This document shows, in pieces, positions 19,098 to 53,918 of a DNA stretch of 64,000 nucleotides; positions within the stretch are counted from its first letter, which is position 1, and each line of letters begins with the position of its first letter. Source of the stretch: Owenia fusiformis (lineage: Eukaryota > Annelida > Polychaeta > Sabellida > Oweniidae); assembly GCA_903813345.2 (NCBI GenBank), contig CAIIXF020000004.1, positions 27,221,985-27,285,984 of the forward strand, in the 5' to 3' direction. The notes beneath the pieces are model-generated. The model was not told the origin of the DNA. It worked only from the letters and a program-made list of their open reading frames with translations, and made no database searches. The position numbers and the translations under genes were made by a program.

Positions 19098-19098
19098 C

Positions 19099-22325: not shown

Positions 22326-22333
22326 TGACGTCA
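22326..22333. promoter_or_regulatory. Palindromic CRE-type site TGACGTCA upstream of linker gene 1
   Basis: A perfect TGACGTCA lies 379 bp before the start codon and is preserved in copy B (57,016-57,023). A TATA-like CTCTATATACTTTT follows at about 22,341 and a CCAAT box at about 22,378. Whether these form the promoter is inference; no transcription start can be read from the sequence. Confidence 0.35.
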
Positions 22334-22704
22334 TTGAATACCTCTATATACTTTTAGTCACACGGTATCTAATCGACCAATGAGAGAACGAGTACCACGG
22401 CATGGAGTTATTGTCTGGACACACTTTCAGATGGATGAACAATTAGGCATACGGACAAACAGCTTCTCTATATTTTACTCAATCTTCATCCAATAATGGG
22501 ATTAAAAAGCATAGACAGTGACATTCAATTGGACTCTGAACCAAATGATGGTAACAAAATGACCAACTTCTTTTTTATCAGATTCGTGTGATCCTGTAAA
22601 ATCGCTTGGTACTATAATGCTGCCTTTGGTCACTTGGTGCAGTATTTTCAAGTACTACTATTCACTTGATACTTTTCACATATACTTGAAATCAGTCTGT
22701 ATCG

Positions 22705-25700: not shown

Positions 25701-27823
25701 TGGATTTTTGCCTCTAATGCGCTTTTGTAAGGATTTTGAGAACAAGGATAAATTATGCAAGTTATGCATCACAGTGCTGGTATAAAATAAAGACATTAAT
25801 CTGTTGACAAAGACAAAATAATGATCAAAGGAGTTTTGGCAATATTGCACCAGTAATAGACTTTAGTTCCTATATTTTGTATGTATTTTCATCAAAAATT
25901 ATTGAGAATTAAGAAAAACAGAGGTGCATGACTAATTCTGGCCCAGTTACTGTGTAAATATTAGGACTTAAAAATTAGACTCTTAAAATTAACTTTCAGT
26001 TGATACTTTGGTGCCAGGCAAACCAATCGTAACTGTCCTCCCCAAAAATCAGAATTGTTTCCCAGACGCTGCCTCGGATGTAACACTTATCGGCACAGTA
26101 ACAAGAACGGAGACATCAGAATTTTTCCCTCAAGTTTTTAAGGGAACTGCCATAGGAGAATATAGTTTTATAGATAGCGACGGAAGGTAAATGCAAGAGT
26201 GAATTTTCAAGTGGCTATGTACATCATTGGAGGAGAGTATACAAAATGTAAAATATGCACATTTTGGGGGATATGTATCTAGACAATATAAGAAACTATG
26301 GGGTTTCAAACCACTATGGTCATGCCCAGTGATCATGAAAATTGGATGGGGGAGAAAACAATTTCTGCTAGAAAATTCGAAAAACTATTGAATTACTGAA
26401 TGGATGGGCACACAGTATGATAACATATTTTGAGTCTTCTGAACAGATACACTTCTAAAATATGAGATCTATTAAAAAAAGGTGCAAGGCCATCAAAGTG
26501 CACATGTCAATGTTATCATAACTTAATTAATGCCATTGCTGACTTCATAAAATAAGTTTCCATATGTTGTACAGTAAAACCTGCGAACAGGGAATGCTCT
26601 TGGGACTGGATGAAAGTTTCCTTGTTCAGAGGTTTTCCTTATAGAGAGGGGCCGCACTTTTAGCAAACTTGCCGAATAAGCATATTTGTATACATATGGG
26701 CATTGATTGATTGTACCAATGTTGACTCCATACTTCGTTGCTAGACCTTGTTGTGACATCTTGGAAGATGTATGAAGGTCTCCCACCTCCCTCTATTGGC
26801 ATTCTCCCTATGTTGATTTTAGCTGCTGCTGCTAGTGTCTAATGATGTCTAGTTGATGTAATTATTGATAGATTTGGCACAACATGACACATGTACTTAT
26901 CTGTTATCTCCAAAAAACAATTGTTTTGGTCCCTAGATTATCACAACTGATTTGATGTAATTAGGTTTGTCGAAAGGCAGAATTAGTGTCATGATAATAA
27001 GGAACAAACAGATTAGTATTACTTTTAAAATATATCAGGGTAATTAACAGTGGGTAGAATGCTACATCTTGTAAACAATTGGCTTATCTTAATCTCAATC
27101 ATACTAATCCAAGCTTTTTAGAATCAGATATTGGCTTAAGACTTTCACACCTCTGAAAAATAATGGAATATACAGTGTCACCAATATTCCATATTCCTTG
27201 TTCACAGGTGAATTTTCATATTTTGCCCCAAAATAGTGTTCCTTGTTCCCTGTTCACAGGTTTTCCCTACAGAGAGGGTCCATCAACATGTAAGTCAATG
27301 GAAAAATATTTGGTTCTTTTGAAAAGCATTCCTTGTTCATAGGTTTTCCCTACAGAGAGGTATTCCATCGGACAGGTTTTACTGTATATGTTATCAATTT
27401 TAAAATGTTTATATCCTAACTGTTTTTTTAGATTATGTGTATTATAACTGAAATCACCTTTTTAGTAATTGATGAAACGTAACTATTATATAATTGAGCT
27501 TCAACATTAATGATAATATATTTGTGAAATCTATACATGTACTGAGGTGTTGATCCTCAGACGCATTATAATAATGTTTGTGCTTTTCATGTTATTTATG
27601 TTTCAGGGATATCAAGGGTGTCTTGGAAGTCAGTCTTACCCACTTTGCGGCATCAGGTGAAATGACATGGGACTGGATTGATGACAAGTATAAATTTAGA
27701 GGACATGCATTTCAGCCCCTTTTCCTTGAATCGCCACTCATAGCCACTTTATACCATGGATTTGATTTTAAGGAGGTTTGCTCAAATGCAATCTGGCATC
27801 CCTATGACGAAATTAAAATATAA
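22705..27823 (+). CDS. Giant extracellular haemoglobin linker chain, copy 1 (six exons, 268 aa)
   Basis: Exons: 22,705-22,874, 23,249-23,358, 24,161-24,228, 25,413-25,467, 26,000-26,186, 27,607-27,823, all with GT...AG introns and consistent phases. Residues 1-27 form a signal peptide (hydrophobic IILLVVAVLCIW). Residues 28-93 hold a CDC motif and a charged helical segment of the kind that forms the linker coiled coil. Residues 97-134 are an LDL-receptor class A module with six cysteines (97, 105, 111, 118, 124, 134) and the DCLDGSDE calcium motif. Residues 135-268 are the C-terminal domain with cysteines 154 and 255. In annelids such linkers scaffold the hexagonal-bilayer haemoglobin in blood or coelomic fluid. 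Length suits the family (about 220-260 aa mature). The first of three nearby ATG codons was chosen. The linker class is not resolved. A secreted LDLa protein of other function is the alternative. Confidence 0.85.
23127..23228 (+). repeat. Intron 1 VNTR, three units of ~33 bp
   Basis: GATTAACTTATTTTACTTTT followed by TGAATGATTCTTA is repeated three times; copy B has two units (about 57,833-57,902). It is a length polymorphism between the paralogues. Confidence 0.8.
26572..27384. mobile_element. Tigger/pogo-like non-autonomous element in intron 5 of linker gene 1 (813 bp)
   Basis: The ends CAGTAAAACCTG and CAGGTTTTACTG are perfect inverted repeats flanked by TA on both sides (26,570-26,571 and 27,385-27,386). 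Copy B at 61,330-61,350 has the uninterrupted site with a single TA. Internally the phrase CCTTGTTCACAGG...CTACAGAGAGG recurs two or three times. There is no transposase. The end sequence resembles the Tigger-type terminus at 13,860. Confidence 0.9.
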
Positions 27824-28075
27824 TGCTTGTTCTAAAATCTAAAATTGGACTTAAGATTAGTTAAGCATCATGAACTGTTAAGACTACATGCAGCTGTTAA
27901 ATAATAATTATTGACTTACTAACTTATAATCTGATTACATTTGAAAATGTTTTGCTCTTACAATTTTTTACTTCCCACAATTTTGCTCTCACAATTCTTA
28001 TATTATGATTAAAAAACATTTAACTCTCCCCAAGAATATGCTGTCAAGATAATCATAAATACTTGTAAATCTGAA

Positions 28076-28081
28076 AATAAA
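28076..28081 (+). terminator. Possible polyadenylation signal of linker gene 1
   Basis: AATAAA 253 bp after the stop codon, conserved in copy B (62,008-62,013). Other A/T-rich hexamers are nearby, so this is tentative. Confidence 0.3.
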
Positions 28082-28469
28082 AATCAGGAACATAAAATCA
28101 TATACATATTTTTGTTAAATCTAAAAACATTTCGGATCAATGTCATGAATATGACATTCAGAAAGGACAATGTCCTTGGACTTTTTACTTAGCATCATTT
28201 ACACTATGTAAAATCCCATGATTAATACAGTATCATAAACCTATTAAACATACATATCAGTTGTTTTAATTCGTTTTAACCTGTTATCATAGGTTTATGT
28301 ATAAGACATAATTATAACAATGAATGATACGGACTTTTTTGCAGTTTCTCCTCTGATACTTGTATAATTTGTTTTAATTTGTTATCAGCTGTTATCAGCT
28401 GTTATATTCCATCTGGTTCAACTGGGAAAAACATATTATACTGGATGATACATTTCTCTGCTCTTGCGT

Positions 28470-29417
28470 ATAATTTGTTTACATTAGGTTACATGTTGTT
28501 GACACAACATGTTGACACTATCTTGTTGACATAGACATATTGAGTGTTTTGATAAAAGCGGGTATTGATAAATTAAGTTTTGACATTTGAAAGTTGTAAT
28601 GAATTAATATAAATGATTTTTCAAAATAAGTCACCAGAAGTGATTAGTGCAGCAGTTGAAAGATATATTTTAGTTTTACATTTATAACGTGCTTGCAAAA
28701 ACACGGGCGCCCATTTAGATTATTAGCGGTTTTATTATAATATTGGATTGCTTCAATGCGCTCCATGAAAGAAAAATGTGGGCACTTTATTAATTGAAAT
28801 CAATATGTCTTAATATTAAAGCTACATTGTTAACGGAGACAACGTAAGACTTCGACATTTTAACCCATTTCAAAATTCGGTGTTTTTATTTTCCATAACG
28901 GCTACTAGTATTTGTGTGCCATAGTTATCTCAGCTTTCGGGAATCACGGTTATCGTGATTTAAGGGCAGTTATAAAAATATACAAGGCGATGGTTTAAAA
29001 TGGACAATTTTCAAAACTGCTCAACTTCACGTTTTTAAAGAATGCTTGCCCGGCGAGGGGTTTGCTATTGCGAGAGAACAAAAACATTGAATTAGGATTT
29101 TTCCTAATACGTAATCATTAATACTTAATACTTAATCATTAATCAACAACTTTTATAACCGTCTCTCTGATTAAATATCATGCCAATTAAAACCACGATT
29201 GTGTTGACAGGATTAAATGCGATATCTATGGAATAATAATTTAATGAACTCAATAGTCTAAATGATAAATAAGTTCATAATTTAGTCTTGGCTGACTAGT
29301 CTTGTATCATCAGAGTTGGATTGCAAATACCTCCCTAAATCAAATATTTATAATTGTTTTTATGTCTCTGATCCAACCACTAAAGTTTAAAAGGAACACT
29401 ATAGTGTCCCGTGAATT
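28470..29417. other. Left interior of the giant element, nothing recognised
   Basis: AT-rich, without coding potential or identifiable repeats apart from the subterminal motifs near the element end. Confidence 0.4.
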
Positions 29418-31912
29418 TATTAGACTCCAGATTGAAAATCTGGAGTCTATTGTTTTTGCCAGTATTCTTATTATTATTAGACTCCAGATGAAAATCTGGA
29501 GTCTATTGCTTTTGCCAGTTTTCTTATTATTAGACTCCAGATATCAATCTGGAGTCTATTGTTTTTGCCAGTATTCTTATTAGACTCCAGATGAAAATCT
29601 GGAGTCTATTGCTTTTGCCAGTTTTCTTATTATTAGACTCCAGATGAAAATCTGGAGTCTATTGCTTTTGCCAGTTTTCCTATTATTCTTTCTTTCTTTC
29701 TTTCCGAACACTTTTTCTCAGCAACTAGAAGAACTTACTTAAATCTGATAACATAGTCAACTAGGTAATGAAACTTAGTTTCTGGGAAATTAGGTCAAAT
29801 GTTTATCTAGGTCAAAGGTCAAGAACTAGGTCAAATCGTGGGTTCTCACTATTTTACAAGTTTTCTCAGTCGTCCTTCGGTATTTTTGCTCCGGGTTTTT
29901 TTCATCATGTTTCTTAGAAAAAAAGCTAATTCCGTTAGGCAAATCGTTTTTTGATAACTCTTACCGATTTTGAGAAATGACGTCCGAAAAGTAGGTCAGA
30001 ACATAAAAAGTTCTCCAAATTCAACGTGTGAATTATCAAATAAGTGTAGAATTATCTCAGGAATCCGAATCTGCAAACAAAATTTCGATCCGACTACCGG
30101 TTCAGAAGTTATAGCATTTTGAAATCTCAAAATCGCTAAATTTGGTGCCCCATGTTAAGTCAATGGGGAAAAAGACTTCTTCGAAGTGTAAAATACGAGA
30201 TATAGACTGAGTACAGCTTAACGTAATGAAAGCCTATAAAAGAAGGGGACCTCGAAGGCTATCTAGCTTTAAAATTTGGACAGCAAAATGCCTAGGTCAA
30301 AATCTAGGTCAAATTTATAACATTTTCTTATTTTTACGATTCTGACACTACACTTAAATAATTTGCTTCAAAATTTTGTATACAGGTAGCAAAGAGTGTG
30401 CTTATAGTGATAGCCTTTTGCCGTCAGAAAGTATTTTGACCCACTTTTGAGATATGGTGTCCGAAATGTAGGTCAAACTAAAAAGTTAACCAAATTTAAC
30501 ATATGAGCTATGAAATAAGTGTAGAATTTTCTCAGGAATCTGAATCTGCAAACCAAATTCCGATCCGACATCTGGTTCGAAAGTTATGGCGTTTTGAAAA
30601 TTTTGAGAAAAATTGATCTGTTGATATCCTGATAGAAAGTCAAGGAAAAAAGATTTTTTTGAAGTGTAAAATACGAGATATAGATTGAGTACAGCTTAAG
30701 ATAATGAATTCCTATAAAAGAAGGGGACCTCAAAAGCTACCTAGTTTCAATATTTGGACACCAAAATGCCTAGGTCAAAATCTAGGTCAAATTCATAGTT
30801 TTTCCTTATTTTTGCGATTCTGGCACTACACTTTTAGGATTTGCTTCAAAATTTTGTATACCTGTAGCAAAGAGTGGGCTAATAGTGTAAGCTTTTTGCC
30901 GTCAAAGAGTATTTTGACCCACTTTTGAGATATGGTGTCCGAAAAGTAGGTCAAAATAAAAAATTCTCCAAATTTTACATATGAGTTATGAATTAAGAGT
31001 AGAATTTTCTCAGGAATCCGAATCTGCAAACCAAATTTTGATCCGACTTCCGGTTCCAAAGTTGTGGCATGTCCAAAAAGTAGGTCAAAATAAAAATTCG
31101 CCAAATTTAACGTATGAGTTATGAATAAGGGGTAGAATTTTGTCAGGAATCCGAATCTTTAAATCAAATTTCGATCCGACTTCCGGTTTGAAAGTTATGG
31201 CGTTTTGAAATTTCGAGAAAAATCGATCTGATGTTATCCTGATAGAAAGTCAAGGAAAAAAGATTTTTTTGAAGTGTAAAATACGAGATATAGATTGAGT
31301 ACAGCTTAAGATAATGAATTCCTATAAAAGAAGGGCACCCCAAAAGCTACCTAGTTTCAATATTTGGACACCAAAATGCCTAGGTCAAAATCTAGGTCAA
31401 ATTCATAGTTTTTCCTTATTTTTGCGATTCTGGCACTACACTTTTAGGATTTGCTTCAAAATTTTGTATACAGGTAGAAAACAGTGTGCTTATAGTGTTA
31501 CCCTTTTGCCGTCAGAGAGTATTTTGACCCACTTTTGAGATATGGTGTCCGTAAAGTAGGTGAAAATAAAATGAGTTATGAATTAAGGGTAGAATTTTCT
31601 CAGGAATCCAAATCTGCAAACCAAATTTCAATCTGACTTCCGGTCAAAAATTCCTACTAACCTACCTACTTACCTACTCGGCTACCTACTTAGCTACCTA
31701 CTCAGCTACCTACTCAGCTACTTACTCCGCTACCTACTCAGCTACTTACTCAGCTACCTGCTCAGCTGCTCACTCAGCTACCTACTCAGCTACTTACTCA
31801 ATTACTTAATCATCTTCTTACTCAGCTTCCTACTCAGTTACTTACTCAGCTCTTTACTCAGGTAAATCAATCTGGAGTCTTAAATTGAACTTTGTTCAAT
31901 TTACAAATCTAG
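29418..31912 (+). repeat. Helentron-like unit 1 of tandem array (5' end iterated five times)
   Basis: It begins with five head-to-tail copies (about 29,418-29,690) of a 50-60-bp piece carrying the hairpin GACTCCAGAT...ATCTGGAGTC. Three internal submodules of about 0.5-0.6 kb follow, each with GTGTAAAATACGAGATATAG (30,185, 30,663, 31,273), and then a CTACTCAGCTAC minisatellite at 31,655-31,862. The 3' end has TCTGGAGTCT (inverted copy of the 5' motif), the hairpin AAATTGAAC-TTT-GTTCAATTT, six bases, then CTAG followed by T. Hairpin plus CTAG|T with subterminal inverted repeats is the plan of Helentron-associated elements such as DINE-1. Confidence 0.75.
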
Positions 31913-33573
31913 TTATTATTATTATTATTTTTTTTTTTCTTATTCTTCCTCCTTACAAGATTTCTCACCAACTAGAAGAACTTACTTTAAGCTGCTTACA
32001 TGATCAACTAGGGAATGTATCTGGGATTATGGGAAATTAGGTCAAATTTTTATCTAGGTCAAAGGTCAAGAACTAGGTCAAATCCAGTACTTTGTCACTT
32101 TTTCCCATTATCTTGGTCGTCCTTCAATATTTTTGATCCGGTTTTTTTTCATTGTGTTCCTCATAAAAAAGTAGAAAAGCTAGGGTCGATTTAGTTTTTA
32201 GGTATCTCAAACCGATTTCGAGATATCCGTGTCCGAAAACGAGGTCCAAAAAAAAGTTCTCCGAATCCAATGTCCAGGATATCAGTCTTATAGGAAATTT
32301 TCTCAGGATTCCGAATCTGAAAACCAAATTTCGATCTAACTTCCGGTTCAGAAGTTATGGCGTTTTGAAAATTCAAAAATCGCTAAATTTGCTGCCCCAT
32401 GTTAATTCAATGGGAAAAAATATTTTTGAAGTGTAAAATACGAGATATAGACTAAGTACAGCTAAACATAATGGAATCCCATAAAAGAAAGGGACCTCAA
32501 GACCTTCTTTTCATAAAATTTTGGACACCAAAATGCCTAGGTCAAAATCTAGGTCAAATTCAAAGTTTTTCCTTATTTTTGCGATTCTGACACTACAGAT
32601 TAATTATATTCTTCGAAATTTTGTATACATATAGCCAAGAGTGTGCTTATAGTGGTAGCCTTTTGCCGTCAGAAAGTATTTTGACCCACTTTTGAGATAT
32701 GGTGTCCGAAAAGTAGGTCAAAATAAAAATTTCTCCAAACTCAACGTATGAGTTATGAATTAAGAATAGAATTTTCTCAGGAATCCGAATCTGCAAACCA
32801 AATTTCGATCCGATTTCCCGTTCGGAAGTTATGGGGTTTTGAAATTTCGAGAAAAATCGATCTGATGGTATCCTGATAGAAAGTCAAGGAAAAAAGATTT
32901 TTTTGAAGTGTAAAATACGAGATATAGACTTAGTACAGCTTAAGATAATGAATTCCTATAAAAGAAGGGGACCTCAAAAGCTACCTAGTTTCAATATTTG
33001 GACACCAAAATGCCTAGGTCAAAATCTAGGTCAAATTCATAGTTTTTCTTAATTTTTACGATTCTGGCACTACACTTTTAGGATTTGCTTCAAAATTTTG
33101 TATTCAGGTAGAAAAGAGTGTGCTAATAGTGATAGCCTTTTGTCGTCAGAAAGTATTTTGACCCATTTTTGAGATATGGCGTCCTAAAAGTGGGTCAAAA
33201 TAAAAAAATCTCCAAATTTAATGTATGAGTTATGAAATAAGGGTAGAATTTTCCCAGGAATCTGAATCTGCAAACCAAATTTTAATCCGACTTTCGGTCA
33301 AAAATCCCTACTTACCTACCTACCTACATACCTACTCGGCTACCTACTTAGCTACCTACTTCTCGGCTACCTACTCAGCTACCTACTCAGCTACTTACTC
33401 AGCTACCTACTCAGCTGCTTACTCAGCTTCCTTCTCAGCTACCTACTCAGCTACTCACTCAATTACTTAATCATCTACTTACTCAGCTTGCTACTCAGTT
33501 ACTTACTCAGCTACCTACTCAAGTAAATCAATCTGGAGTCTTAAATTGAACTTTGTTCAATTTACAAATCTAG
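31913..33573 (+). repeat. Helentron-like unit 2 (type A)
   Basis: It opens with (TTA)n and poly-T, then CAAGATTTCTCACCAACTAG. Two submodules follow, then a CTACTCAGCTAC minisatellite (about 33,305-33,525), TCTGGAGTCT, the hairpin and CTAG at 33,570-33,573. It lacks the GACTCCAGAT 5' hairpin. It is almost the same as unit 5, which is four units away. Confidence 0.75.
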
Positions 33574-35169
33574 TTATTCTTATTATTCCGTAGCCGTTTT
33601 TTCAGAAACTATAAGGTATCCAGTAAAGACCATTATTCAGTTTATTTAGGTTCAGTATCTAGTTGGTGGGAAATTGGGTCACATTTTTATCTAGGTCAAA
33701 GGTCAAGAACTAGGTCAAATCCAGTACTTTGTCACTTTTTTCGATTTTCTCGGTCGTCCTTCAATATTTTTGATCTGGGTTTTTTTCATTGTGTTCCTCA
33801 TAAAAAAGTAGAAAAGCTAGGGTCGATTTAGTTTTTTGGTATCTCAAACCGATTTCGAGAAATCAGTGTCCGAAAACGAGGTCCAAAAAATAGTTCTCCG
33901 AATCCAATGTCCAGGATATCAGTCTTATAGGGAATTTTCTCAGGATTCCGAATCTGAAAACCAAATTTCGATCTGACTTCCGGTTCAGAAGTTATGGCGT
34001 TTTGAAAATTCAAAAATCGCTAAATTTGGTGCCCCATGTTAATTCAATGGGAAAAAATATTTTTTTGAAGTGTAAAATACGAGATATGGACTAAGCACAG
34101 CTAAACATAATGGAAGCCCATCAAAGAAAGGGACCTCAAGACCTTCTTTTCATAAAAATTTGGACACCAAAATGCCTAGGTCAAAATCTAGGTCAAATTC
34201 ATAGGTTTTCCTTATTTTTTCGATTCTGACACTACACTTCAATAATTTACTTCAAAATTTTGTATACAGATAGGAAAGAGTGTGTTAATAGTGTCAGCCT
34301 TTTTCCGTCAGAAAGTATTTTGACCCACTTTTGAGATATGGTGTCCGAAAAGTAGGTCAAAATAAAAAATTCTCTAAATTTAACGTATGAGTTATGAATT
34401 AAGGGTAGAATTTTCTCAGGAATCCGAATATGCAAACCAAATTTCGATCCGACTTCCGATTTCAAAGTTATGGCGTGTCCAAAAAGTAGGTCAAAATAAA
34501 AATTTGCCAAATTTAACGTATGAGTTATGAATTAAGGGTAGAATTTTGTCAGGAATCCGAATCTTTAAATCGAATTTTGATCCGACTTCCGGTTCGGAAG
34601 TTATGGCGTTTTGAAATTTCGGAAAATCGATCTGATGGTATCCTGATAGAAAGTCAAGAGTAGAGAAGAAAATGTTGAAAAATTCATCCATCCTTCCTAT
34701 CTGATCTTATCCTATCCTTCCTTTCTATCCTTCCTTTGTATCTTTTCCTTCCTATCCTTCCTTTCCTCTCCTATAATATCCTTTCTTCCTATTCTGTTCT
34801 ATCCTATCCTTCTTTCTTATTCTATCCTATCGTTCCTTCCTATTCTGTCCTATCCTACCTTCCTATTTTATCGATCCATCTTTTTCTGAATGACTCAGCT
34901 TATTCTAGATGACTCGGCTTATTCTAGATGACTCGGCTTATTCTAGATGACTCGGCTTATTCTAGATGACTCGGCTTATTCTGGATGACTCGGCTTATTC
35001 TGGATGACTAGGCTTATTCCATCCACCCATCCATCTTTTTCTGGATGACTCAGCTTATTTTGATGACTCAGCTTATTCTGGATGACTCGGCTTATTCTGT
35101 ATGACTGGGCTAAAAAAAAGTCTAGATCTGGAGTCTGAAATTGAACTTCGTTCAATTTCCAAAGTCTAG
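33574..35169 (+). repeat. Helentron-like unit 3 (type B)
   Basis: It has a different opening (AACTATAAGGTATCCAGTAA), shared with unit 7. Its minisatellites are a pyrimidine-rich CTATCCTTCCTT tract (34,685-34,860) and GATGACTCGGCTTATTCT repeats (about 34,890-35,110). It ends with GAAATTGAAC-TTC-GTTCAATTTC and CTAG at 35,166-35,169. Confidence 0.75.
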
Positions 35170-37002
35170 TTATTATTAGACTCCAGATGAAATCTGGAGT
35201 CTATTGTTTTCGTCAGTTTTCTTATTATTATTCTTCTTATTATTATTCTATCCCAGTTTTCTCAATAACCATAAGGTCTTCAGTAAAGTCAATCATTTGG
35301 TCAATTTAGGTTCAGTATCTAGTTCTCTGGAAATTGGGTCAAATTTTTATCTAGGTCAAAGGTCAAGAACTAGGTCAAATCTAGTACTTTGTCACTTTTT
35401 TCGATTTTCTCGGTCGTCCTTCAATATTTTTGATCCGGGTTTTTTTCATTGTGTTCCTTATAAAAAAGTAGGAAACCTAGGGTCGATTTACTTTTTTGAT
35501 ATCTCAAACCGATTTCGAGATATCAGTGTCCGAAAACGAGGTCCAAAAAAAAGTTCTTCTAATCAAATGTCCAGGATATTAGTCTTATAGGAAATTTTCT
35601 CAGGATTCCGAATCTGAAAACCAAATTCGAATCAGACTTCCAGTTCGGAAGTTATGGCGTTTTGAAAGCTCAAAAATCGCTAAATTTGGTGCCCATGTTA
35701 AGTCAATGGGAAAAAAGATTTTTTTGAGGTGAAAAATACGAAATATAGACTGAGTTCAGCTAAATATAATGAAAGCTTTTAAAAGAATGGGACCTCAAAA
35801 GACATCTAGCTTTAAAATTTGGACACCAAAATGCCTAGGTCAAAATCTAGGTCAAATTCAAAGTTTTTCCTTATTTTTGCTATTCTGACACTACAGATTA
35901 ATTATATTCTTCGAAATTTTGTATACATGTAGCCAAGAGTGCGCTAATAGTGTTAGCCTTTTGCCGTCAGAAAGTATTTTGCCCCACTTTTGAGATATGG
36001 TGTCCGAAAAGTAGGTCAAAATAAAAAATTCTTCAAATTTAATGTGTGTGTTATGAACTAAGTATAGAATTTTCTCAGGAATCCGAATCTGCAAACCAAA
36101 TTTCAATCCGACTTCCGGTTCGGAAGTTATGACATTTTGAAAGCTCAAAAATCACTAAATTTGGTGCCCCATGTTATGTCAATGGGAAAAAATATTTTCT
36201 TGAAGTGTAAAATACGAGATATAGACTAAGTACAGCTTAAAATAATGAAAGCCTATGAAAGAAGTGAACCTCGAAGGCCACCTAACTTCAAAATTTGGAC
36301 ACCAAAATCCCTAGGTCAAAATCTAGGTCAAATTCATAGTTTATCCTTATTTTTGCGATTCTGACACTACACTTTAATTATATTCCTCGAAATTGTGTAT
36401 ACATGTAGCCAAGAGTGTGCTAATAGCATTAGCCCTTTGCCGTCAGAAAGTATTTTGATCCGACTTCCGGTTCCGAAGTTATGACGTGTCCGAAAAGTAG
36501 GTCAAAATAAAATTCGCCAAATTTAACGTATGAGTTATGAATTAGGGGTAGAATTTTGTCAAGAATCCGAATCTTTAAATCAAATTTCGATCCGACTCCC
36601 GGTTCGGAAGTTATGGCGTTTTGAAATTTCAAGAAAAATCGATCTGATGGTATCCTGATAGAAAGTCAAGAGTAGAGAAGAAAATATTGAAAAATGCATC
36701 CATCCTTCCTTTCTGATCCTATCCTATCCTTCCTATCTACCCTTGCTTTGTATCCTCTCCTTCCTATTCTATCCCTTCTTCCTATTCTATTCTATCCTTT
36801 CCTATTCTATCCTATCGTTCCTTCCTATTCTATCCTATCCTTCCTTCCTTTTTCATCCATCCTTCCTTTTTCATCCATCCATCCTTCTTTTTCTTGATGA
36901 CTTAGCTTATTTTGGATGACTTGACTTATTCTGGATGACTCAGCTAAAAAAAAGTCTAGATCTGGAGTCTGAAATTGAACTCGTTCAATTTCCAAAATCT
37001 AG
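35170..37002 (+). repeat. Helentron-like unit 4 (type B, with 5' hairpin)
   Basis: It starts with TAGACTCCAGATG...ATCTGGAGTCTA, so the 5' subterminal inverted repeat is intact. Two submodules, a CTATCC-type tract (about 36,695-36,895) and a short GATGACTT run follow. It ends with hairpin GAAATTGAAC-TC-GTTCAATTTC and CTAG at 36,999-37,002. It is the most complete single unit with both ends. Confidence 0.75.
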
Positions 37003-38644
37003 TTATTATTTTTTTTTTCTTATTCTTCCTCCTTACAAGATTTCTCACCAACTAGAAGAACTTACCTTAAGCTGCTTACATGATCAACTAGGGAATGTAT
37101 CTGGGATTATGGGAAATTAGGTCAAATTTTTATCTAGGTCAAAGGTCAAGAACTAGGTCAAATCCAGTACTTTGTCACTTTTTCCCATTATCTTGGTCGT
37201 CCTTCAATATTTTTGATCCGGTTTTTTTTCATTGTGTTCCTCATAAAAAAGTAGATAAGCTAGGGTCGATTTAGTTTTTTGGTATCTCAAGCCGATTTCG
37301 AGATATCCGTGTCCGAAAACGAGGTCCAAAAAAAAGTTCTCTGAATCCAATGTCCAGGATATCAGTCTTATAGGAAATTTTCTCAGGATTCCAAATCTGA
37401 AAACCAAATTTCGATCTGACTTCCGGTTCAGAAGTTATGGCGTTTTGAAATTCAAAAATCGCTAAATTTGGTGCCCCATGTTAATTCAATGGGAAAAAAA
37501 TATTTTTTTGAAGTGTAAAATACGAGATATAGACTAAGTACAGCTAAACATAATGGAATCCCATAAAAGAAAGGGACCTCAAGACCTTCTTTTCATAAAA
37601 TTTTGGACACCAAAATGCCTAGGTCAAAATCTAGGTCAAATTTAAAGTTTTTCCTTATTTTTGCGATTCTGACACTACAGATTAATTATATTCTTCAAAA
37701 TTTTGTATACATATAGCCAAGAGTGTGCTTATAGTGGTAGCCTTTTGCCGTCAGAAAGTATTTTGACCCACTTTTGAGATATGGTGTCCGAAAAGTAAGT
37801 CAAAATAAAAATTTCTCCAAACTCAACGTATGAGTTATGAATTAAGGATAGAATTTTCTCAGGAATCCGAATCTACAAACCAAATTTCGATCCGACTTCC
37901 CGTTCGGAAGTTATGGGGTTTTGAAATTTCGAGAAAAATCGATCTGATGGTATCCTGATAGAAAGTCAAGGAAAAAAGATTTTTTTTGAAGTGTAAAATA
38001 CGAGATATAGACTGAGTACAGCTTAAGATAATGAATTCCTATAAAAGAAGGGGACCTCAAAAGCTACCTAGTTTCAATATTTGGACACCAAAATGCCTAG
38101 GTCAAAATCTAGGTCAAATTCATAGTTTTTCTTTATTTTTACGATTCTGGCACTACACTTTTAGGATTTGCTTCAAAATTTTGTATACAGGTAGAAAAGA
38201 GTGTGCTAATAGTAATAGCCTTTTGCCGTCAGAAAGTATTTTGACCCATTTTTGAGATATGGCGTCCTAAAAGTGGGTCAAAATAAAAAAATCTCCAAAT
38301 TTAATGTATGAGTTATGAAATAAGGGTAGAATTTTCCCAGGAATCTGAATCTGCAAACCAAATTTTAATCCGACTTTCGGTCAAAAATTCCTACTTACCT
38401 ACCTACCTACATACCTACTCGGCTACCTACTTAGCTACCTACTTCTCGGCTACCTACTCAGCTACTTACTCAGCTACCTACTCAGCTGCTTACTCAGCTT
38501 CCTTCTCAGCTACCTACTCAGCTACTCACTCAATTACTTAATCATCTACTTACTCAGCTTGCTACTCAGTTACTTACTCAGCTACCTACTCAAGTAAATC
38601 AATCTGGAGTCTTAAATTGAACTTTGTTCAATTTACAAATCTAG
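37003..38644 (+). repeat. Helentron-like unit 5 (type A)
   Basis: Nearly the same as unit 2 through its opening, both submodules and the CTACTCAGCTAC minisatellite (about 38,395-38,595). It ends with CTAG at 38,641-38,644. Confidence 0.75.
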
Positions 38645-40504
38645 TTATTATTATTTTTTTTCTTATTCTTCCTCCTTACAAGATTTCTCACCAACTAGAA
38701 AAACTTACTTTAAGCTGCTTATATGATCAACTAGGGAATGTATCTGGGATTATGGGAAATTAGGTCAAATTTTTATCTAGGTCAAAGGTCAAGAACTAGG
38801 TCAAATCAAGTACTTTGTCACTTTTTCCCATTATCTCGGTCGTCCTTCAATATTTTTGATCCAGGTTTTTTTCATTGTGTTCCTCATAAAAAAGTAGAAA
38901 AGCTAGGGTCGATTTAGTTTTTTGGTATCTCAAACCGATTTCGAGATATCAGTGTCCGAAAACGAGGTCCAAAAAAAAGTTCTCCCAATTCAATGTCCAC
39001 GCTACTGGTCTTGTAGGAAATTTTCTCAGGATTCCGAATCTGAAAACCAAATTTCGATCCGACTTCCGGTTCGGAAGTTATATCGTTTTGAAAGCTCAAA
39101 AATCGCTAAATTTGGTGCCTATGTTAAGTCAATGGGAAAAAAGATTTTTTTGAAGTGAAAAATACGAAATATAGACTGAGTTCAGCTAAATATAATGGAA
39201 GCTTTTAAAAGAAGGGGACCTGAAAAGCCATCTAGCTTAAAAATTTGGACACAAAAATGCCAAGGTCAAAATCTAGGTCAAATTCAAAGTTTTTCCTTAT
39301 TTTTGCGATTCTGACACTACACTTTAATTATATTCTTCGAAATCGTGTATACATGTAGCCAAGAGTGTGCTAATAGTGTTAGCCTTTTGCCGTCAGGAAG
39401 TATTTTGACCCACTTTTGAGATATGGTGTCCCAAAAGTAGGTCAAAATAAAAATTCTTCAAATTTAACTTATGAGTTATGAATCAGGGGTAGAATTTTGT
39501 CAGGAATCGGAATCTGCAAACCATATTTCGATCCGACTTCCGGTTCGGAAGTTATGGCGTGTCCAAAAAGTAGGTCAAAATAAAAAAAATTCTAAATTTA
39601 ACGTATGAGTTATGAATTAGGGGTAGAATTTTATCAGGAATCCGAATCTGCAAACCAAATCTCGATTCGACATCTTGTTCAGAAGTTATGATGTTTTGAA
39701 AGCTCAAAAATCGCTAAATTTGGTGCCCCATGTTAAATCAATGGGACCGAATAATTTTTTGAAGTGTAAAAATACAAGATATAGAATGAGTACAGCTAAA
39801 CATAATGAAAGCCCATAAAAGAAGGGGACCTCAAAAGCTACTTTCCTTCAAAATTTGGACACCAAAATACCTAGTTCAAAATCTAGGTCAAATTCTTAGT
39901 TTTTTCTTATTTTTGCAATTCGGACACTACACTTCAATGATATTCTTCGAAATTTTGTATACATGTAGCAAAGAGTGTGCTTATAATGTTAACTTTTTGC
40001 CGTCAAGAAGTTTTTAGGCCCACTTTTGAGATCTGGTGATCGAAATGTAGGTCAAAATAAAAAGTTCTCCAAATTTAACGTATGAGTTATGAATTAGGGG
40101 CATAATTTCCTAAGGAATCCGGATCTGAAATTAAAATTGCAATCGGACCCCCGGTTAAGATTCTAAGCCATTTTGAAGTTTGAAATTCGCACTTGCCAGT
40201 ATTCACGATGCAGATTGATCAAATAAACTTTCAAAAAGTCCTACATACCCTACTTTACCTCCCTACCTACTCAGCTACTTATTTGACTACTTACTCAATT
40301 GCTTAATTAGTTATTACTTACTTAGCTACTTACTCAGCTACTAACTCAGCTTTTTACCCAGTTACTTACTCAGCTACTTACTCAACTACTACTAAGGTAC
40401 TTACTCAACTAATTACTCAGTTACTTACTCAGCTCTTTACTGATCTATCTAGGTCAAATAAATCTGGAGTCTTAAATTGAACTTGTTCAATTTCACAAAT
40501 CTAG
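38645..40504 (+). repeat. Helentron-like unit 6 (type A, diverged)
   Basis: It shares the opening of units 2 and 5, but later submodules and the ACTCAGCTACTTACTC minisatellite (about 40,245-40,440) are more diverged. It ends with AAATTGAACTTGTTCAATTT and CTAG at 40,501-40,504. Confidence 0.72.
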
Positions 40505-41922
40505 TTATTATTATTATTCTTTGGGAGTTTTTTCAATAACTATTAGGTATCCAGTAAGGACCATAATACAGTTTATTTAGGTTCAGTATCTAGTTGGTGG
40601 GAAATTGGGTCAAATTTTTATCTAGGTCAAAGGTCAAGAACTAGGTCAAATCCAGTACTTTGTCACTTTTTTCGATTTTCTCGGTTGTCCTTCAATATTT
40701 TCGATCCGGGTTTTTTTCATTGTGTTCCTTATAAAAAAGTAGGAAATCTAGGGTCGATTTAGTTTTTTGATATCTCAAACCGATTTCGAGATATCAGTGT
40801 CCGAAAACGAGGTCCAAAAAAAAGTTCTCCGAATCGAATGTCCAGGATATTAGTCTTATGGGAAATTTTCTCAGGATTCCGAATCTGAAAACGAAATTTA
40901 GATCAGACTTCCGGTTCTGAAGTTATGGCGTTTTGAAAATTCAAAAATCGCTAAATTTTTAGCCCATGTTAAGTCAATGGGAAAAAATATTTTTTTGAAG
41001 TGAAAAATACGAAATATAGACTAAGTTCAGCTAAATATAATGAAAGCTTTTAAAAGAATGGAACCTCAAAAGCCATCTAGCCTTAAAATTTGGACACCAA
41101 AATGCCTAGGTCAAAATCTAGGTCAAATTCAAAGTTTTTTCTTATTTTTGCGATTCTGACACTACACTTTAATTATATTCTTCGAAATTGTGTATACATG
41201 TAGCCAAGAGTGTGCTAATAGCGTTAGCCTTTTGCCGTCAGAAAGTATTTTGACCCACTTTTGAGATATGGTGTCCGAAAAGTAGGTCAAAATAAAAAGT
41301 TCTCCAAATTTAACGTTTGAGTTATGAATTAAGAATAGAATTTTCTCAGAAATCCGAATCTGCAAACCAAATTTCGATCCGACTTCCGGTTCTGAAGTTA
41401 TGGCGTGTCCAAAAAGTAGGTCAAAATAAAAATTTGCCAAATTTAATGTATGAGTTATGAATTAGGGGTAGAATTTTGTCAGGAATCCGAATCTTTAAAT
41501 CAAATTTAGATCCGACTTCCAATTCGGAAGTTATGGTTGTTCGAAATTTCGGAAAATCGATCTGATGTTGTCCTGATAGAAAGTCAAGAGTAGAGAAGAA
41601 AATATTGAAAAATTCATCCATCCTTCCTATCTGATCCTATCCTATCCTATCTTTCCTTCGTATCCTTTCCTTCCTATCCTTTCCTTCCTATCCTCTCCTA
41701 TCATATCCTTTCTTCCTATTCTGTTCTACCCCATCCTTCTTTCTTATTCTATCCTATCGTTCCTTCCCATTCTATCCTATCCTACCTTCCTGTTTTATCC
41801 ATCCATCTTATTCTGGATGATTCAGCTTATTCTGGATGACTCGGCTTATTTTGGATGACTGGGCTTAAAAAAGTCTGGATCTGGAGTCTGAAATTGAACT
41901 TCGTTCAATTTCCCAAGTCTAG
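40505..41922 (+). repeat. Helentron-like unit 7 (type B), end of array
   Basis: It opens like unit 3, carries one full submodule, CTATCC-type (about 41,617-41,800) and GGATGACTCGGCTTATTT repeats, and ends with AAATTGAACTTCGTTCAATTT and CTAG at 41,919-41,922. No further unit follows. Confidence 0.75.
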
Positions 41923-43952
41923 TTATAATTATCTTAGACAATAATGAAGCGGTACAATCGTGGGAGTGTTAATTAATCGGAATGCAAGTTTGATACAAAA
42001 TAACTCCTTTGGATCAAATATTTAAATTTTACTAGAGTGCGGGGGGGGGTGGAAACGAGTCTCCATGCAAGCACTTAATATCAAAAGAAAGATTTCAGTA
42101 CCCCTTGACTTCGCTCCCGGACTTCACTATTCACCACCTCCCCTCCCCCTTCCCCAATTATCTTTTATGACCCCAGATTGTTCGTTTCTGTGCCCCCCCC
42201 CCCCCCCTGTCCATGGCAAGTAAGTAATCTATGTGTATATCGGCTCCCTCCCAATGGTGGGCAAAACCAGATGCAGGCATAGAGATTGACAAGGTGAGGG
42301 GATTAAAAATAAAAATAGTTTTGTTTTAGAGGCAGAAATAATTCCTAGATGACCTGTCTTTACTGTAATCAAGATGCTACCTAACCGCAGTTTTAAAAGT
42401 TATTTATCTTTTGTGATAATCTAATACTACTTATAGATTGGTTTTCCAAATGTAAGACCCCGTATAAGACCCTTGTCTCTGATTGTGAAACATGTGTATG
42501 CATCAAATCCGAGGAATATTACATTATGTGAAACAGTTCCAAAATGTTTTGTCTTGAACTTAATCAAATAGCAATATATTTCAACATGTGGAAATTGTTT
42601 ATTAAAGTAATGTCGGGCACTATAGGTGAACGGGTTTTCAGTTTTGCAATAAATCCATGCATATCCAATTGTAGCAATCATACGGCCAGACCAGGGGAAC
42701 ACAGATACCCTTCGTATTCTTACATTGTCTGCATGTCAACCATACGGCGACCGCACGGTCAGCCTGCCTTTCGCACCTCTCATACACGTGTAAAAATTCT
42801 AAGATCACATTGATTCCTCGTTTTCAATCCCTGGTTTTCAAAGCCCGTTAGATGTTAATGAATGGAGATTTTTAAATGTGCTTTCATTAAACAGCCAGGA
42901 AAAATAAACTATTTTTCATTTCCCAGGAATCACATAATCCGTCAAAATTCATTTAATTTAAAATGTACCTAATATATTACATGTATACAATCAGACAGAC
43001 TGGCTATTCTAATCCGTTATGAAAAGCCATTTGTTTTTTCCTCTACAGGATGTTTCTGCGGAAGTTAATTTGTTTATCTTAGTGTTTAGAGGCAATGTCC
43101 TTTGACGCTTTCGTGAAATAAATGAACTCTGTGATGGACTACAATTGTATATTTTTACAGGAACAGTTACCCGAAGTAAACCACTGTTACATTATTTTCA
43201 TTTTAGGTCTCTCTAATTAGTTGTACTTATACCCGTAGCCAAGGGGGGGGGGGGGTGTTCAAGGAGTCCAACTCAACAGAATTCGAATTGAATACAAAAT
43301 AAATTCATAACATATAAATATATAAATACATAATGTCTATCCAAGTCTTCTTGCATTTTCTGAACTTCAAATGCGCCTTTTGATGTGTGATAACAAAATA
43401 CTAAATAAATACTTAATGTTACTCCAGCTTGTTTTAATAGTAATTTGGCAATTAAACATGCATAATGTGTGTACTGTGTACAACCCGAATCCTCTCCCGA
43501 TCAGGTCACGTTTTATATTTCTCTGATGTAATAACTGCCCTGTCAACCCTCACGCATTAGGCGTGATTGTTACGCATTTGCTGGAAAAATAGAAATCACG
43601 CATCAATTTAGCGTGTATGATCAAATATCACGCAAATCAAGGATTTTGTTGAAATTTTTAAAAATCGTTTTTTGTGAAATGCCGACACGGTAAAATACCG
43701 AACGGCGAAAAAAGCGAACGAATTCCGTTCGGTCTTTGCATGCGCTTGCCGTTTATTTGATTGAAATCATTCAAATCAAAGTTGGCATTCGAGAACAAAA
43801 ATGTGTCCAGTCAAAAATAGATTTCTAATGTTTGATTTTGAGTAGTTGTATTTATTGATCCTTGTTTTTCAATCTACAGATGGTTCACTGAATTCCGAAG
43901 TAAACAGAAAATAATAAACATTTCCTTGGTTCCCATGATACTGCTTATAACC
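41923..43952. other. Right interior of the giant element: poly-G/C tracts, no gene
   Basis: Contains long G or C homopolymers (about 42,040, 42,196 and 43,242). Phrases at about 42,480-42,540 and 42,990-43,120 recur in diverged form at about 45,950 and 45,480-45,620, so this DNA holds old internal duplications. No domain is recognised in its short open frames. Confidence 0.4.
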
Positions 43953-44134
43953 CAGGCCCGTAGCCAGGATTTGCCAAGGGGGGGGGCAGTTTTCAAAAAT
44001 GTCTAGGGGGTTCACATTTGACAATTTTGGTCCAAATATGGCTAAAATCACACGAGAAATGCTCAAAATGGTGAAAAACTGCATGATTTTGAAAGAATCT
44101 TTGGCCAGGCCCCCCCCCCCCGGATACGGGCCTG
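43953..44134. mobile_element. Short hAT-like inverted-repeat element
   Basis: The left end CAGGCCCGTAGCCAGG and the reverse complement of the right end CAGGCCCGTATCCGGG match at 14 of 16 positions. The flanks TTATAAC/CTATAAC suggest an imperfect 8-bp duplication. It is G-rich inside on the left and C-rich on the right. Confidence 0.6.
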
Positions 44135-44426
44135 CCTATAACCTATAATACTCATTTATTAAAACAAATATTAATTTATCCGTCTGTCTGATTAGATTTT
44201 GTTCCCTGACTCAAACCAGAGACATATAAAACATATATATTTTATATGTCTCTGCTCAAACAAAGTCAACCCCGATTTCAGTTCTTAATTCTTCACTTGA
44301 AACGATATAGCCAACATGATACAACATGAATTTGGATTCATTATACATATATAAAGCCTGTTGTTATCAAAACCCATAAATCCTCACCATATAAATATAG
44401 TTTTATTGATGACCAAAAACAGATAT

Positions 44427-44625
44427 CAGGGGCGTAGCCAGCTTTCAGTCAGGGGGGAGGGGGTGCGATCGCCAAAAAGATTTCGGTTTTCAGTCAGGAG
44501 GGTACGATTGTGGCCTGAGCATCATTTTAAAGCTCCTTTCTTCTTCTTTCTCAGGGTTTTATTGTTAAGGGGGGGGGTTGTGATGGGTGCGATCGCACAA
44601 CCCCCCCCCCTGGATACGCCCACGG
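44427..44625. mobile_element. Second short CAGGGGCGTAGCCAG element
   Basis: The left end CAGGGGCGTAGCCAG pairs imperfectly with the right end CTGGATACGCCCACGG. GATAT occurs on both sides. It contains GTGCGATCGC twice and long G and C runs. It is related to the element at 43,953; a further lone CAGGGGCGTAGCAAAC end lies at about 46,331. Confidence 0.5.
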
Positions 44626-46470
44626 ATATTTTGGCAACTTCCACGTTTACCCCCCCCTAATCATTTTTGCTCCCCCTCTAAATATCAGACCAATCAGGCG
44701 ATGAGGCATGGATCAGGATACCCTGACTCCCAAGCTGTGCGACTTCTGGCAACCGCTTCACCTATATTCCCGGGGGAAATGCTTTTTCCTTTGAAAAATT
44801 ATCAAATATGGTCGTGTGTGGGCAAACACGGAGGAGGAGGAGAGGGGTGCGTGCATTGCGTGCGATCCCTCATCAGTTGTGTAATATTTATTTCTGTTTT
44901 CAAATGAAATAATTTCACCCTTGCCCAATTGGCTATAATGCGCGAATCAAATAGCATGGAGATCAGATAATTAGATTGATTCGTTTTTTCGCAATCAGAT
45001 GAATTAACTTATTGTTTTCTCTGATTAAAAGGCGGTTTGAAGCTACTTTTATAGGATTTGTAAATTCGCAATCAGACTGGCTTATTTTAATATTTAGTCA
45101 GTGCAAGAGGAGGGGACTATAATGTAGAAAATCGTTTTGATTTCGACACTAACTGAAATAGTTTATCACAATAAATTGTTAAATACGGAAACAGAGATCG
45201 GTTTAAAAATGAAGAGAGGCAAAAAACTCTATTTATACAATGTTATTAAAACCCGGGAATTAAAAGCAATTTTAGACTGTTAGATCTTCTGTAATCGAGG
45301 TGATGTTGGTACACTGCCACCGTTAGAAAAACAAAGACTAAGACAAAGACTATATAGCAATTAATCCTTTTGTAATCATTAAATGTTAAATGTAGATTCT
45401 TATTATTTCGTTGGACAATGTTCAGACTTCTGACCAAGATTTATTCATTTATGTTTGTATTTAAAAAATAGTATTTCAATCAGACAGACGTTCTAATGAG
45501 TTAAAAAAATACATTTGTCCATCACCTCTCAAGAAGTTTTCAAAAGTAATCAAGTTGATTTGTTTATTTTAGTGTTTAGCATTGTTTTTCATAACTTGAC
45601 GCTTCCATGAACAGAATGACTTTGAAATGAGTATTTATAATTTTAGCTTTTATACGACATGCTTATTGTATATTTCTATATGAACGTTGTAGTTATGTGA
45701 TGTAACATCGCCCCCCCCCCCCCCCAAATTACAGGTATACAACTTTTGGTCGGAATACTTTAACTTGCGATTAAAAGCAATTTTAGACTGTTAGATGATC
45801 TTTTATGTAATCTAGGTGATGTTGGTAGACTTCCCCAGTTAAGAAAACAAAGACTTAAGACAAAGAGAACTATATAGCAATAATCCTTTTGTTATCACTA
45901 AATGTTAGATTCTTTATTGGACAATATTTTGACTTCTGTCTCCGATTGTTATGCAGATATGTGTATATAATCATGTGAACAACATATTACGTGGAAATTC
46001 CCATATTCATTCTCATAATGTCTTACAGCTATTTCGCAAATGACATGCATGTAAGCCTAAATAACATGTGGACGTAATATTGCAGAACTGAGCGAAAAGA
46101 AAGGTTGAACAAATTAGATTAAGATATTTTATTTTTTAAATGCACAAAGGGCAACAGTTGAAGAGCAAAAATTAAAGGCATTGTGAAATAGATCGTGCTT
46201 TTGTATGATCCTCTTCTATAGTGCCCTACCCTTTGTATTCGTTGACTTCACTTCTTAAAAGAGAGTTTCGTCTTCTCGTAGTATATAACTAGACTCTGCA
46301 CGTAGCGTAATAGTGCCCCTATTAGCCATGTACAGGGGCGTAGCAAACTTGGGGGGGGTAAGCGATTGCCAAAAAAACAATATGGGATTTCAGTCTGAGA
46401 CAAATGGTCAAACATGAGTTTCAAAAAACTTCTAGAATTACCTTATGTAAATATTTACGTTAGCTTGTTT
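44626..46470. repeat. Diverged internal duplication in the giant element
   Basis: The phrase TTAAAAGCAATTTTAGACTG with its following ~150 bp occurs at about 45,258-45,425 and again at about 45,771-45,940. A C15 run lies at about 45,711. No coding sequence recognised. Confidence 0.55.
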
Positions 46471-46885
46471 AATTAAGGTCTGACGTTATGAAAACAAAGT
46501 GCCATTAATTTCTTAACCGTATAATACAGTATCATCTGTTTGGTCTCGGTATATTCCAGTTTAATTTGTATTATACAAAAAATGATATGTATAATTTGTA
46601 TTATACCACTTTGAAACCTGTTATAATAGAAAATGATATGCGTATAATACTGTTTAATCTGATCCTGACTTAAATTATATCAGGTTAAACTGGAATATAT
46701 TTTGGTTTAATCGGGTATCATTCTCTAATGATATTTGAGTCCGGATCAGATGTTATAATATTGAATGATACTTTCTGTGATATTGGATTAAACAACAAAT
46801 TAAACATCAATATAAGATGTTATCACAAGTATTAATCATAGGATTTTACATAGTGTTATTAGACATTGACCATAATTAGACTTAA

Positions 46886-47362
46886 AGGGACAAAGTGCGT
46901 AAATCAAGTCTCACTTTTGATCTTCATGGTATTTCCAATGGATTAATAAGTACCCAATCTTTCATTTGACACTAAAAAAAGCTCAAACAGACCACATCAG
47001 AGTTGACACGAGATCATGACAAAATATTTTTGATCTATCAATTTATATATGTCAAGTTTTTAGCAATGCCATAGAAAGATGGCATTGTTGTTTGGATTAA
47101 TTATCAATTCAATTTTGACAGGATTTTCAAGCATACGCCATCTTTTAATCCAAGAGTTATTTAAAACATACACTATTTGTGAAAAGTGGTAATTCACTTT
47201 TTTCAATCTCTGAACTTCAAATGCTGTTTTCTATGCGAGTAATTTTATTTTCACTTCAGTATTATCCCAAATTAAAGTTTTTATCATATTTGATTGACTG
47301 TGAGTGGCATGTCTCAAACAATATGTTGTCCTTTTTCCTTCAAAAATAGGCGCATTGCCTGT
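46886..47362. mobile_element. 477-bp insertion flanked by TTAA in copy A flank
   Basis: TTAA stands on both sides (46,882-46,885 and 47,363-47,366). Copy B at about 62,155-62,165 has the joined sequence with a single TTAA. The ends AGGGACAAAGTGCG and (reverse complement) ACAGGCAATGCGCC are weakly similar. TTAA duplication is used by piggyBac, Kolobok and Sola3 elements; which applies is not clear. There is no coding capacity. Confidence 0.75.
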
Positions 47363-47366
47363 TTAA

Positions 47367-47780
47367 CTATCTAGAATAGATTATCATAAAAGAGGTTACA
47401 GGCTCACTACTAACTGACAGGCCCTCTTTTTGGACATAAGAACTTACTCCTGTAGATTTGTCATTCATAACTTTCTAAACATGTGGGTATTTTTATTATT
47501 ATTAATTATCTTGGAAAAATAATTTAGCAAATATCTGACAGCTTATTATCCTATCCAACAAATTGTGTGAGGGTGGAGACATCATCCATTATAAACACAC
47601 ATCAAGTCATGTAATCTGTGTTGAATGGTGAGTGGTCTCGTTGATGGGACCTTGGAGACAAAGTCTAGTGTCTAAGCTTCCCCAAACCATCATCAGTGAT
47701 CATGTGACACGAGGGTGATATTAGTGTGTCAACTCCTAATGTCATTTTTGTAGAAAAGGTCGGACATCCCAATCCGCAGA
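47367..47780. repeat. Continuation of duplicated flank, then unique DNA
   Basis: From CTATCTAGAATAGATTATCA to about 47,552 this matches 62,161-62,185 plus 63,845-64,000, so the segmental duplication runs off the window end. About 47,553-47,780 has no counterpart inside the window. No gene. Confidence 0.8.
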
Positions 47781-48334
47781 CGTCCGTAAGTACGTCCGTC
47801 CGCAAGTACGTCCGTCCGCAAGTACGTCCGTCCGCAAGTACGTCCGTCCGCAAGTACGTCCGTCCGCAAGTACGTCCGTCCGCAAGTACGTCCGTCCGCA
47901 AGTACGTCCGTCCGCAAGTACGTCCTTAAGTCCGTCCGTAAGTATGGGCGTCCGTAAGTACATCTCTCCATCCATCCGTAAGTATGTGCGTCCGTCCGTA
48001 AGTATGTGCGTCCGTCCGTAAGTATGTGCGTCCGTAAGTATGTGCGTCCGTCCATCCGTAAGTACGTGCGACCGTCTGTCCGTAAGTACGTGCATCCGTA
48101 AGTACGTGCGTCCGTCCGTAAGTATGTGTGTCCGTCCGTAAGTACGTGCGTCTGTCCGTAAGTACGTGCGTCCGTCCGTCCGTAAGTACGTGCGTCCGTC
48201 CGTCCGTAAGTATGTGCGTCCGTCCGTAAGTACGTGCGTCCGTCCGTAAGTACGTGCGTCCGTCCGTAAGTACGTGCGTCCGCCCATCTGTAAGTATGTG
48301 CGTCCGTCCATCTGTAAGTATGTGCGTCCGTCCG
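47781..48334. repeat. GTCCGTCCGYAAGTAC minisatellite
   Basis: The left part (47,785-47,930) is a near-perfect 16-bp repeat, GTCCGTCCGCAAGTAC. The right part is a looser GTCCGTAAGTRYGTGC version, and a further short patch lies at 48,500-48,555. Because 16 is not a multiple of three and stops are absent, long frames stay open on both strands (for example 47,742-48,311 minus). They are a by-product of the repeat, not genes. Confidence 0.85.
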
Positions 48335-48559
48335 ACTAAAACGTTATACCCACCTATGCCCAGTCACAAGCCTGTGGACCCTGCTTTTATATCTAATGTG
48401 GATTTTTATCTTACCAATCATGACTTAAATATTAATATGGGTATTTCCCATAATTAATATATACTGAATTTTAACTTTCCAAATATGACTTCAATATTAA
48501 GTATGTGCGTCCGTAAGTATGTGCGTCCGTTAGTACGTGCGTCCGTCCATCCAGGCAAT

Positions 48560-53917: not shown

Positions 53918-53918
53918 C

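Follow-up and report, generated by a model that had tools for sequence, protein, structure and literature searches.

The sequence studied here is a 64,000-nt window of the Owenia fusiformis genome (assembly GCA_903813345.2, contig CAIIXF020000004.1, positions 27,221,985-27,285,984 of the forward strand), which contains no ambiguous bases (N); coordinates given below are positions within this window. A segmental duplication occupies 18679-28201 (copy A) and 53487-62133 (copy B), the two paralogous copies being 93-98% identical by block, with mismatches at 2.3% of 8,764 aligned columns. Copy A is interrupted at 28202-46855 by an element of 18,654 bp with CACTA-like ends, and this element, the family to which it belongs and a block of other mobile sequence nested inside it are the subject of this report.

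The insertion and its empty site

The element is bounded by terminal inverted repeats at 28202-28228 (plus strand) and 46829-46855 (minus strand), in which 26 of 27 positions match when the first and last 27 bases are compared; a repeat finder delimited arms of 28 nt with 96% complementarity. Immediately outside the repeats lie the two copies of the target-site duplication (TSD), TTA, at 28199-28201 and 46856-46858. In copy B, the corresponding empty site (62131-62143, plus strand) is part of the unbroken junction AGCATCAT-TTA-TTAGACATTG at about 62123-62143. A preliminary description of this stretch, which was generated from the DNA letters without database searches, had reported the CACTATG inverted termini with 26 of 27 matches, the TTA duplication and the unbroken site in copy B, and all three were reproduced here.

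Upstream of the insertion, homology between the two copies extends to the insertion base itself (27425-28201 against 61355-62133, 95.6%). Downstream, the first stretch is identical at 30 of 30 bases; a second stretch, past an insert present only in copy A, is identical at 29 of 29 bases and is followed by an insert present only in copy B, after which homology continues at 93.8% over 161 columns. Because the upstream homology reaches the insertion base and the downstream homology resumes past both inserts, the empty site is sound despite these two further insertions. The insert in copy A (~477 bp, about 46886-47362) begins 30 bp past the CACTA site and has TTAA at both edges. The insert in copy B (~1.66 kb, about 62186-63844) has ~6 bp repeated at its edges, and its minus-strand frame at 62541-62960 matches a C2H2 zinc finger.

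A dispersed family with the same ends

The end pattern was searched for in the window's own 498-Mb genome, with the reversed pattern as the control. Exact matches numbered 81, against 0 for the control, and matches with up to three mismatches numbered 121 (100 of them listed), again against 0. By our own reading of the match list, the 81 exact ends resolve into 32 inward-facing pairs, 5.3-21.4 kb in length, and 17 single ends; when we paired the exact and relaxed match lists, allowing about one mismatch at one end, nine further pairs emerged. The preliminary description had made its interpretation depend on the existence of other genomic copies with these ends, and these pairs provide them. 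At position 16 of the repeat, one end carries C and the other T in 32 of the 32 exact pairs, and the lone mismatch between the repeats of the window element, which has C at this position on the left and T on the right, therefore marks the left versus the right end.

Both flanks were contained in a single record for 21 copies, namely the window copy and a set of short copies (L009-L028) comprising 20 of the 24 exact pairs below 10 kb. A 3-bp TSD was found in all 21 and could be extended to 4 bp in none of them. A 22nd pair, at 28.4 Mb on contig C2 (L007/L008), has GGA at each flank, and overall a 3-bp TSD is present in 22 of the 23 copies for which both flanks were read. Divergence from the majority sequence was 0.2-1.8% over the left 560 bp in 21 of 21 copies and 0.4-1.5% over the right 2 kb in 19 of 21, the values for the window copy being 0.54% and 1.17%, respectively. 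The majority core over the 21 copies is 6.58 kb long, and the window element without its nested block is ~6.15 kb long. Judged from these sequences, the copies are a young, dispersed CACTA-like family.

The word GTATAAT and its complement occur 3.0 times per left end and 5.1 times per right end, where the rate in the core interior would give 0.2, in 19 family copies other than that of the window; these words are putative subterminal repeats, and the left subterminal region, in which GTATAAT-type words are thus enriched, corresponds to 28229-28800 (plus strand) in the window element. When the 17 single ends were read inward, nine tracked the core for nearly the full 1.5 kb, seven departed from it earlier and one (L047) was diverged, with joins. 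A separate, diverged type of right end, terminating in ...AATATGTATGATAACA or nearly so, is represented by 12 ends with at most one mismatch. Right ends of this diverged type (L057, L060, L061, L063 and L067) have 88-147 bp in common at the terminus, followed by mostly unrelated sequence; L060 and L061 share a longer stretch and the same flank, and L057 and L067 share a further repeat deeper inside.

A nested block within the element

Alignment of the copies resolves the window element into the family core and a block between element positions 1221 and 13722. The left part of the core (28202-29419, plus strand) is common to other copies, and its right part (41923-46828, plus strand) resumes on the other side of a 12.5-kb block (29420-41922, plus strand) that lies outside the family core, at a T-rich site ~1.2 kb from the left end. 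The core is continuous across this site, base by base, in 12 of the 20 short copies, two of the 12 being without 12 bases just beside it, and the alignments continue through the site in four more (L014, L020, L026 and L028); in L009, L010, L018 and L025, a deletion covers it. There are seven large pairs besides the window copy, five of which are continuous through the site and two of which are unreadable there, and six of the 17 single ends (L042, L045, L047, L051, L053 and L056) align beyond the site without the block. In every other copy readable at this core site, the 12.5-kb block was absent.

The 18.65-kb length is composite, consisting of the ~6.15-kb core and a nested array of HINE-like (non-autonomous Helentron) units, which made the element three times longer. 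The preliminary description had missed this block and treated the whole as one unusually large non-autonomous transposon; that view is not supported, as ~12.5 kb of the length is the nested array, which is missing from the core site in 16 of the 20 short copies. The composite may have moved as a single 18.65-kb unit, or the array may postdate the landing of the CACTA-like element. We also considered whether one array could explain the size of all large copies, and rejected this because five of the seven other large pairs run through the site. In one of the pairs that are unreadable there, on contig C11, a reverse-transcriptase frame (333 residues) lies ~5 kb from the right end, so that the size of at least one large copy has another cause.

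Anatomy of the array

By the anatomy of its ends, the block is classed here as HINE-like. The available text of two reports (PMC4067079; PMC7492417) describes HINEs as having a 5' subterminal inverted repeat (subTIR) with a complementary repeat, a microsatellite, central repeats, a 3' subTIR, a palindrome and a T-rich target. Like these HINEs and DINE-1-like Helentrons, the block has a palindromic 5' subTIR, a subTIR before a 3' hairpin, simple and central repeats and a T-rich target; unlike them, it combines seven 3' ends and stacked 5' ends in a 12.5-kb array within a CACTA-like element.

All units of the array lie on the plus strand. The 5' ends start with TTAGACTCCAGAT, followed a few bases on by its inverse copy, and the 5' subTIR GACTCCAGAT lies 3 nt inside the end. 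Five such ends (subTIR plus inverse copy) are stacked ~50 bp apart at the left edge (29420-29690, with GACTCCAGAT at 29423, 29480, 29533, 29583 and 29636), and a sixth is found at 35179. The seven 3' ends, each composed of a subTIR, a hairpin and CTAG, all have the same orientation: the first three are at 31866-31912, 33527-33573 and 35122-35169; the fourth closes a complete HINE with its own 5' end (35176-37002); and the last three are at 38598-38644, 40458-40504 and 41875-41922, the outermost of which is followed by core sequence. The 3' subTIR ATCTGGAGTC is separated from the CTAG terminus by ~33 bp (43 when counted from its first base), a slightly shorter distance than the 38-60 bp reported for HINEs of mites in the accessible part of PMC4067079. 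Folding predicted the hairpin at all seven 3' ends, with z <= -3.5 at five of them, -2.39 at the fourth and -1.35 at the sixth, where it is weak.

Read from left to right, the order of ends in the window is 5-5-5-5-5-3-3-3-5-3-3-3-3. In the short copy L014, repeats of the same type form a smaller array, which occupies another core site and has a junction of its own. The order of its ends is 5-5-3-3, balanced and nested; its outer 5' type (GATGAAATC...CGTCAG) pairs with its outer 3' type (CTCG...AAAATCTAG), and this combination also delimits the window unit at 35176-37002. A partial cluster, L076, reads 3-3-3 with no 5' ends matched in between. A HINE pile-up in which several 5' palindrome types are mixed is present at a third core site in L004 (1501-3027). 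HINEs insert at TT without a TSD, and the junctions of the window array, L014 and L004 can all be read as such insertions between T and T. Across the genome, the HINE 3' end pattern has 1,185 exact matches, against 0 for the reversed control; among the 100 matches listed, all of which are on contig C1, there are same-strand clusters, such as 17 between 22,591,573 and 22,638,204.

Coding content and the autonomous partner

The copies read showed no transposase, in agreement with the preliminary description, and none was seen by eye in L057 or L072. Pfam returned no match for five frames of the window element or for the 196-aa frame of L024; no stop-free frame longer than 196 aa was present in the 20 short copies; and a scan of the window against Rfam at gathering scores gave no match. 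The longest stop-free frame of the majority core, at 195 aa, exceeds those obtained from 100 block shuffles (mean 109, maximum 179). It falls in a GC-rich stretch, and we do not call it a gene. Frames were listed for nine single ends, and two were scanned with Pfam: one frame of L004 is a reverse transcriptase, and L003 had no match. A frame in L049 appeared hAT-like, by eye only.

CACTA/EnSpm elements are mobilised by a DDE transposase of Transposase_21 type that carries the same ends. The genome has 14 matches to Transposase_21, against none in the 14 control genomes that were run alongside for both the Transposase_21 and the RAG1 searches. The most numerous Transposase_21 family comprises nine near-identical copies with a 608-residue frame; identity is 100% when rounded, and 99.7-99.9% for two pieces of one copy that were compared. 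The sequence of one locus of this family, L068 (G000:C1:24238100-24247500), recurs at eight further places in the genome with a rounded identity of 100% over most of ~8 kb, and this family looks recently active.

Discussion

Taken together, these results lead us to interpret the element, with a probability of about 0.85, as a non-autonomous CACTA (EnSpm)-type insertion into one duplicate with a 3-bp TTA TSD, ~6.15 kb long apart from a nested 12.5-kb HINE-like array. Subterminal repeats at both ends are a feature of CACTA/EnSpm elements, and the family has repeated words near both of its ends. Its CACTATG...CATAGTG ends and 3-bp TSD resemble the CACTA/TAGTG termini and 3-bp TSD listed for CACTA/EnSpm (CMC) elements in the available text of PMC4158355, and membership of this group is proposed. 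The family differs from CACTA/EnSpm elements in that the copies read show no transposase, in its core (~6.15 kb in the window, 6.58 kb for the majority), in having C at one end and T at the other as a constant label of left and right, and in that a partner was not found.

Two kinds of event would be involved. A CACTA-type element would have inserted into one copy of the duplicated segment and duplicated TTA, its CACTATG ends, and perhaps its subterminal repeats, being recognised by a transposase supplied in trans. HINE-like elements would have entered, before or after that move, the T-rich site ~1.2 kb from the left end, and new HINEs, which target TT, would have inserted in the T-rich tract that directly follows the 5' end of an older one. 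Repeated nesting of this kind would stack the 5' ends and place the 3' ends one after another, and a preference for TT on one strand would yield a single orientation. The order of the ends suggests such insertion into the T-rich tract behind older 5' ends. We further propose, tentatively, that HINEs here target themselves: because TT is targeted on one strand and a T-rich tract lies behind the element's own 5' end, each new copy would come to lie within an older one and share its orientation, such that head-to-tail, satellite-like arrays could arise without tandem duplication and an array could ride in a cut-and-paste transposon.

Several observations weigh against this account. As regards the CACTA-like element, the flanks of the 23rd pair (C2:26.38-26.39 Mb, left end GACTATG) read CAA/AAG strictly, or AAG/AAG on the assumption that the first C has been lost. 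Two copies, L012 and L028, depart from the majority by 32% and 12% over the right 2 kb, a divergence that we put down to foreign inserts there. An autonomous CMC partner, for which the preliminary description had proposed a genome search, was not found: neither the end pattern with three mismatches, nor the Transposase_21 search, nor the flanks of four loci revealed a transposase between CACTATGTAAAATCC ends. The main Transposase_21 family has a different right terminus: its common sequence terminates in ...CGCCGGGG, not CACTA, so that it is without a CACTA-family end on that side; a further 6.1 kb of sequence did not reveal its left end. At loci of three of the four other Transposase_21 types, no CACTA-family end was present in the 8.5-9 kb fetched for each, a span that may stop short of their own termini. 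As regards the array, the seven 3' ends of the window are accompanied by six recognisable 5' ends, which leaves the array one 5' end short; a TTA duplication also fits the junctions of the window array and L014; the reading of array growth is based on two complete arrays; and two parts of the window array (31870-33584 and 36960-38655) share 96.9% identity along 1.7 kb, which a block duplication would also explain.

This last identity bears on the most serious alternative, which concerns the growth step only: the HINE array may have been formed by rolling-circle amplification or unequal exchange and may have entered the CACTA element as one block. The HINE clusters inspected among the matches listed each have a single orientation, which accords with this idea, and tandem Helitron arrays produced by a rolling circle have been described (PMC12628747, available portion). 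According to the same portion, however, in such arrays of plant Helitrons numerous 5' ends are often combined with just one 3' end, a product unlike the present arrays, in which both end types are multiple and stacked and, in L014, balanced and nested. We regard entry as a preformed block as less likely than successive nested insertion, which we retain as the proposal.

It is improbable that the family belongs to Chapaev3 (CMC) and not to EnSpm/CACTA. Chapaev3 elements share the CAC...GTG ends and the 3-bp TSD, but their target is TWA in the part of PMC4079192 that was available, whereas only 3 of the 21 TSDs of the family are TWA; the genome also has Transposase_21 genes, though these are unlinked to CACTATG ends.

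Internal repeats can occur in CACTA elements, and L014 has its smaller array of the same type; the 18.65 kb could accordingly be imagined as a single non-autonomous CACTA element whose own internal tandem repeats expand and contract, the short copies being deletion forms. This is very improbable, being largely refuted by the positions of the arrays, which lie at different core sites (with L014 having its own junction and L004 a third site). Moreover, the core is continuous at the window site in 16 of the 20 short copies and in five of the seven other large copies, and the 1,185 genome-wide occurrences of the 3' end of the repeat go far beyond the CACTA-like family.

The preliminary description had left open whether the element moved in after the duplication or was lost precisely from copy B. 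The ends, the TSDs and the empty site support its first option, a CACTA-like insertion postdating the duplication, and such timing agrees with the empty site and is compatible with the divergence figures. Precise loss, with which the two copies alone are compatible, is not needed and strikes us as scarcely credible: the element and exactly one TSD copy would have to be removed together, whereas transposition with a 3-bp TSD covers 22 of the 23 copies without an extra assumption. The least probable of the explanations considered is a non-autonomous RAG-like (ProtoRAG/Transib) element, since the family's first seven bases do equal the terminal heptamer CACTATG, identical in all lancelet ProtoRAG terminal inverted repeats compared in the available text of PMC8289069, but the ProtoRAG TSD given there is 5 bp and TSDs of this length occur in 0 of the 21 copies, and the genome has no RAG1 match, a weak test because the 14 control genomes were also silent.

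With the element taken as a CACTA-type insertion containing a nested array, its CACTA component is an ordinary kind of transposon, and its unusually clean empty site and young, countable family can help to date the segmental duplication. More can be learned from the nested block. The bracket-like order of its 5' and 3' ends offers a testable criterion for distinguishing nested self-insertion from a rolling-circle or unequal-exchange origin of satellite-like Helentron arrays. In the literature consulted on animal CACTA/EnSpm elements, Chapaev TSDs, Helentron/HINE arrays and ProtoRAG, which came mostly from outside subscription sources, we found no description of the family or of this bracket criterion.

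Other features of the window

Each duplicate contains a frame that, by eye, resembles a reverse transcriptase (19467-20714 and 54272-55383, both on the minus strand); the sole frame of the two that was scanned had no Pfam match. Downstream of the element, a simple tandem repeat at 47732-48363 is open in several frames on both strands.

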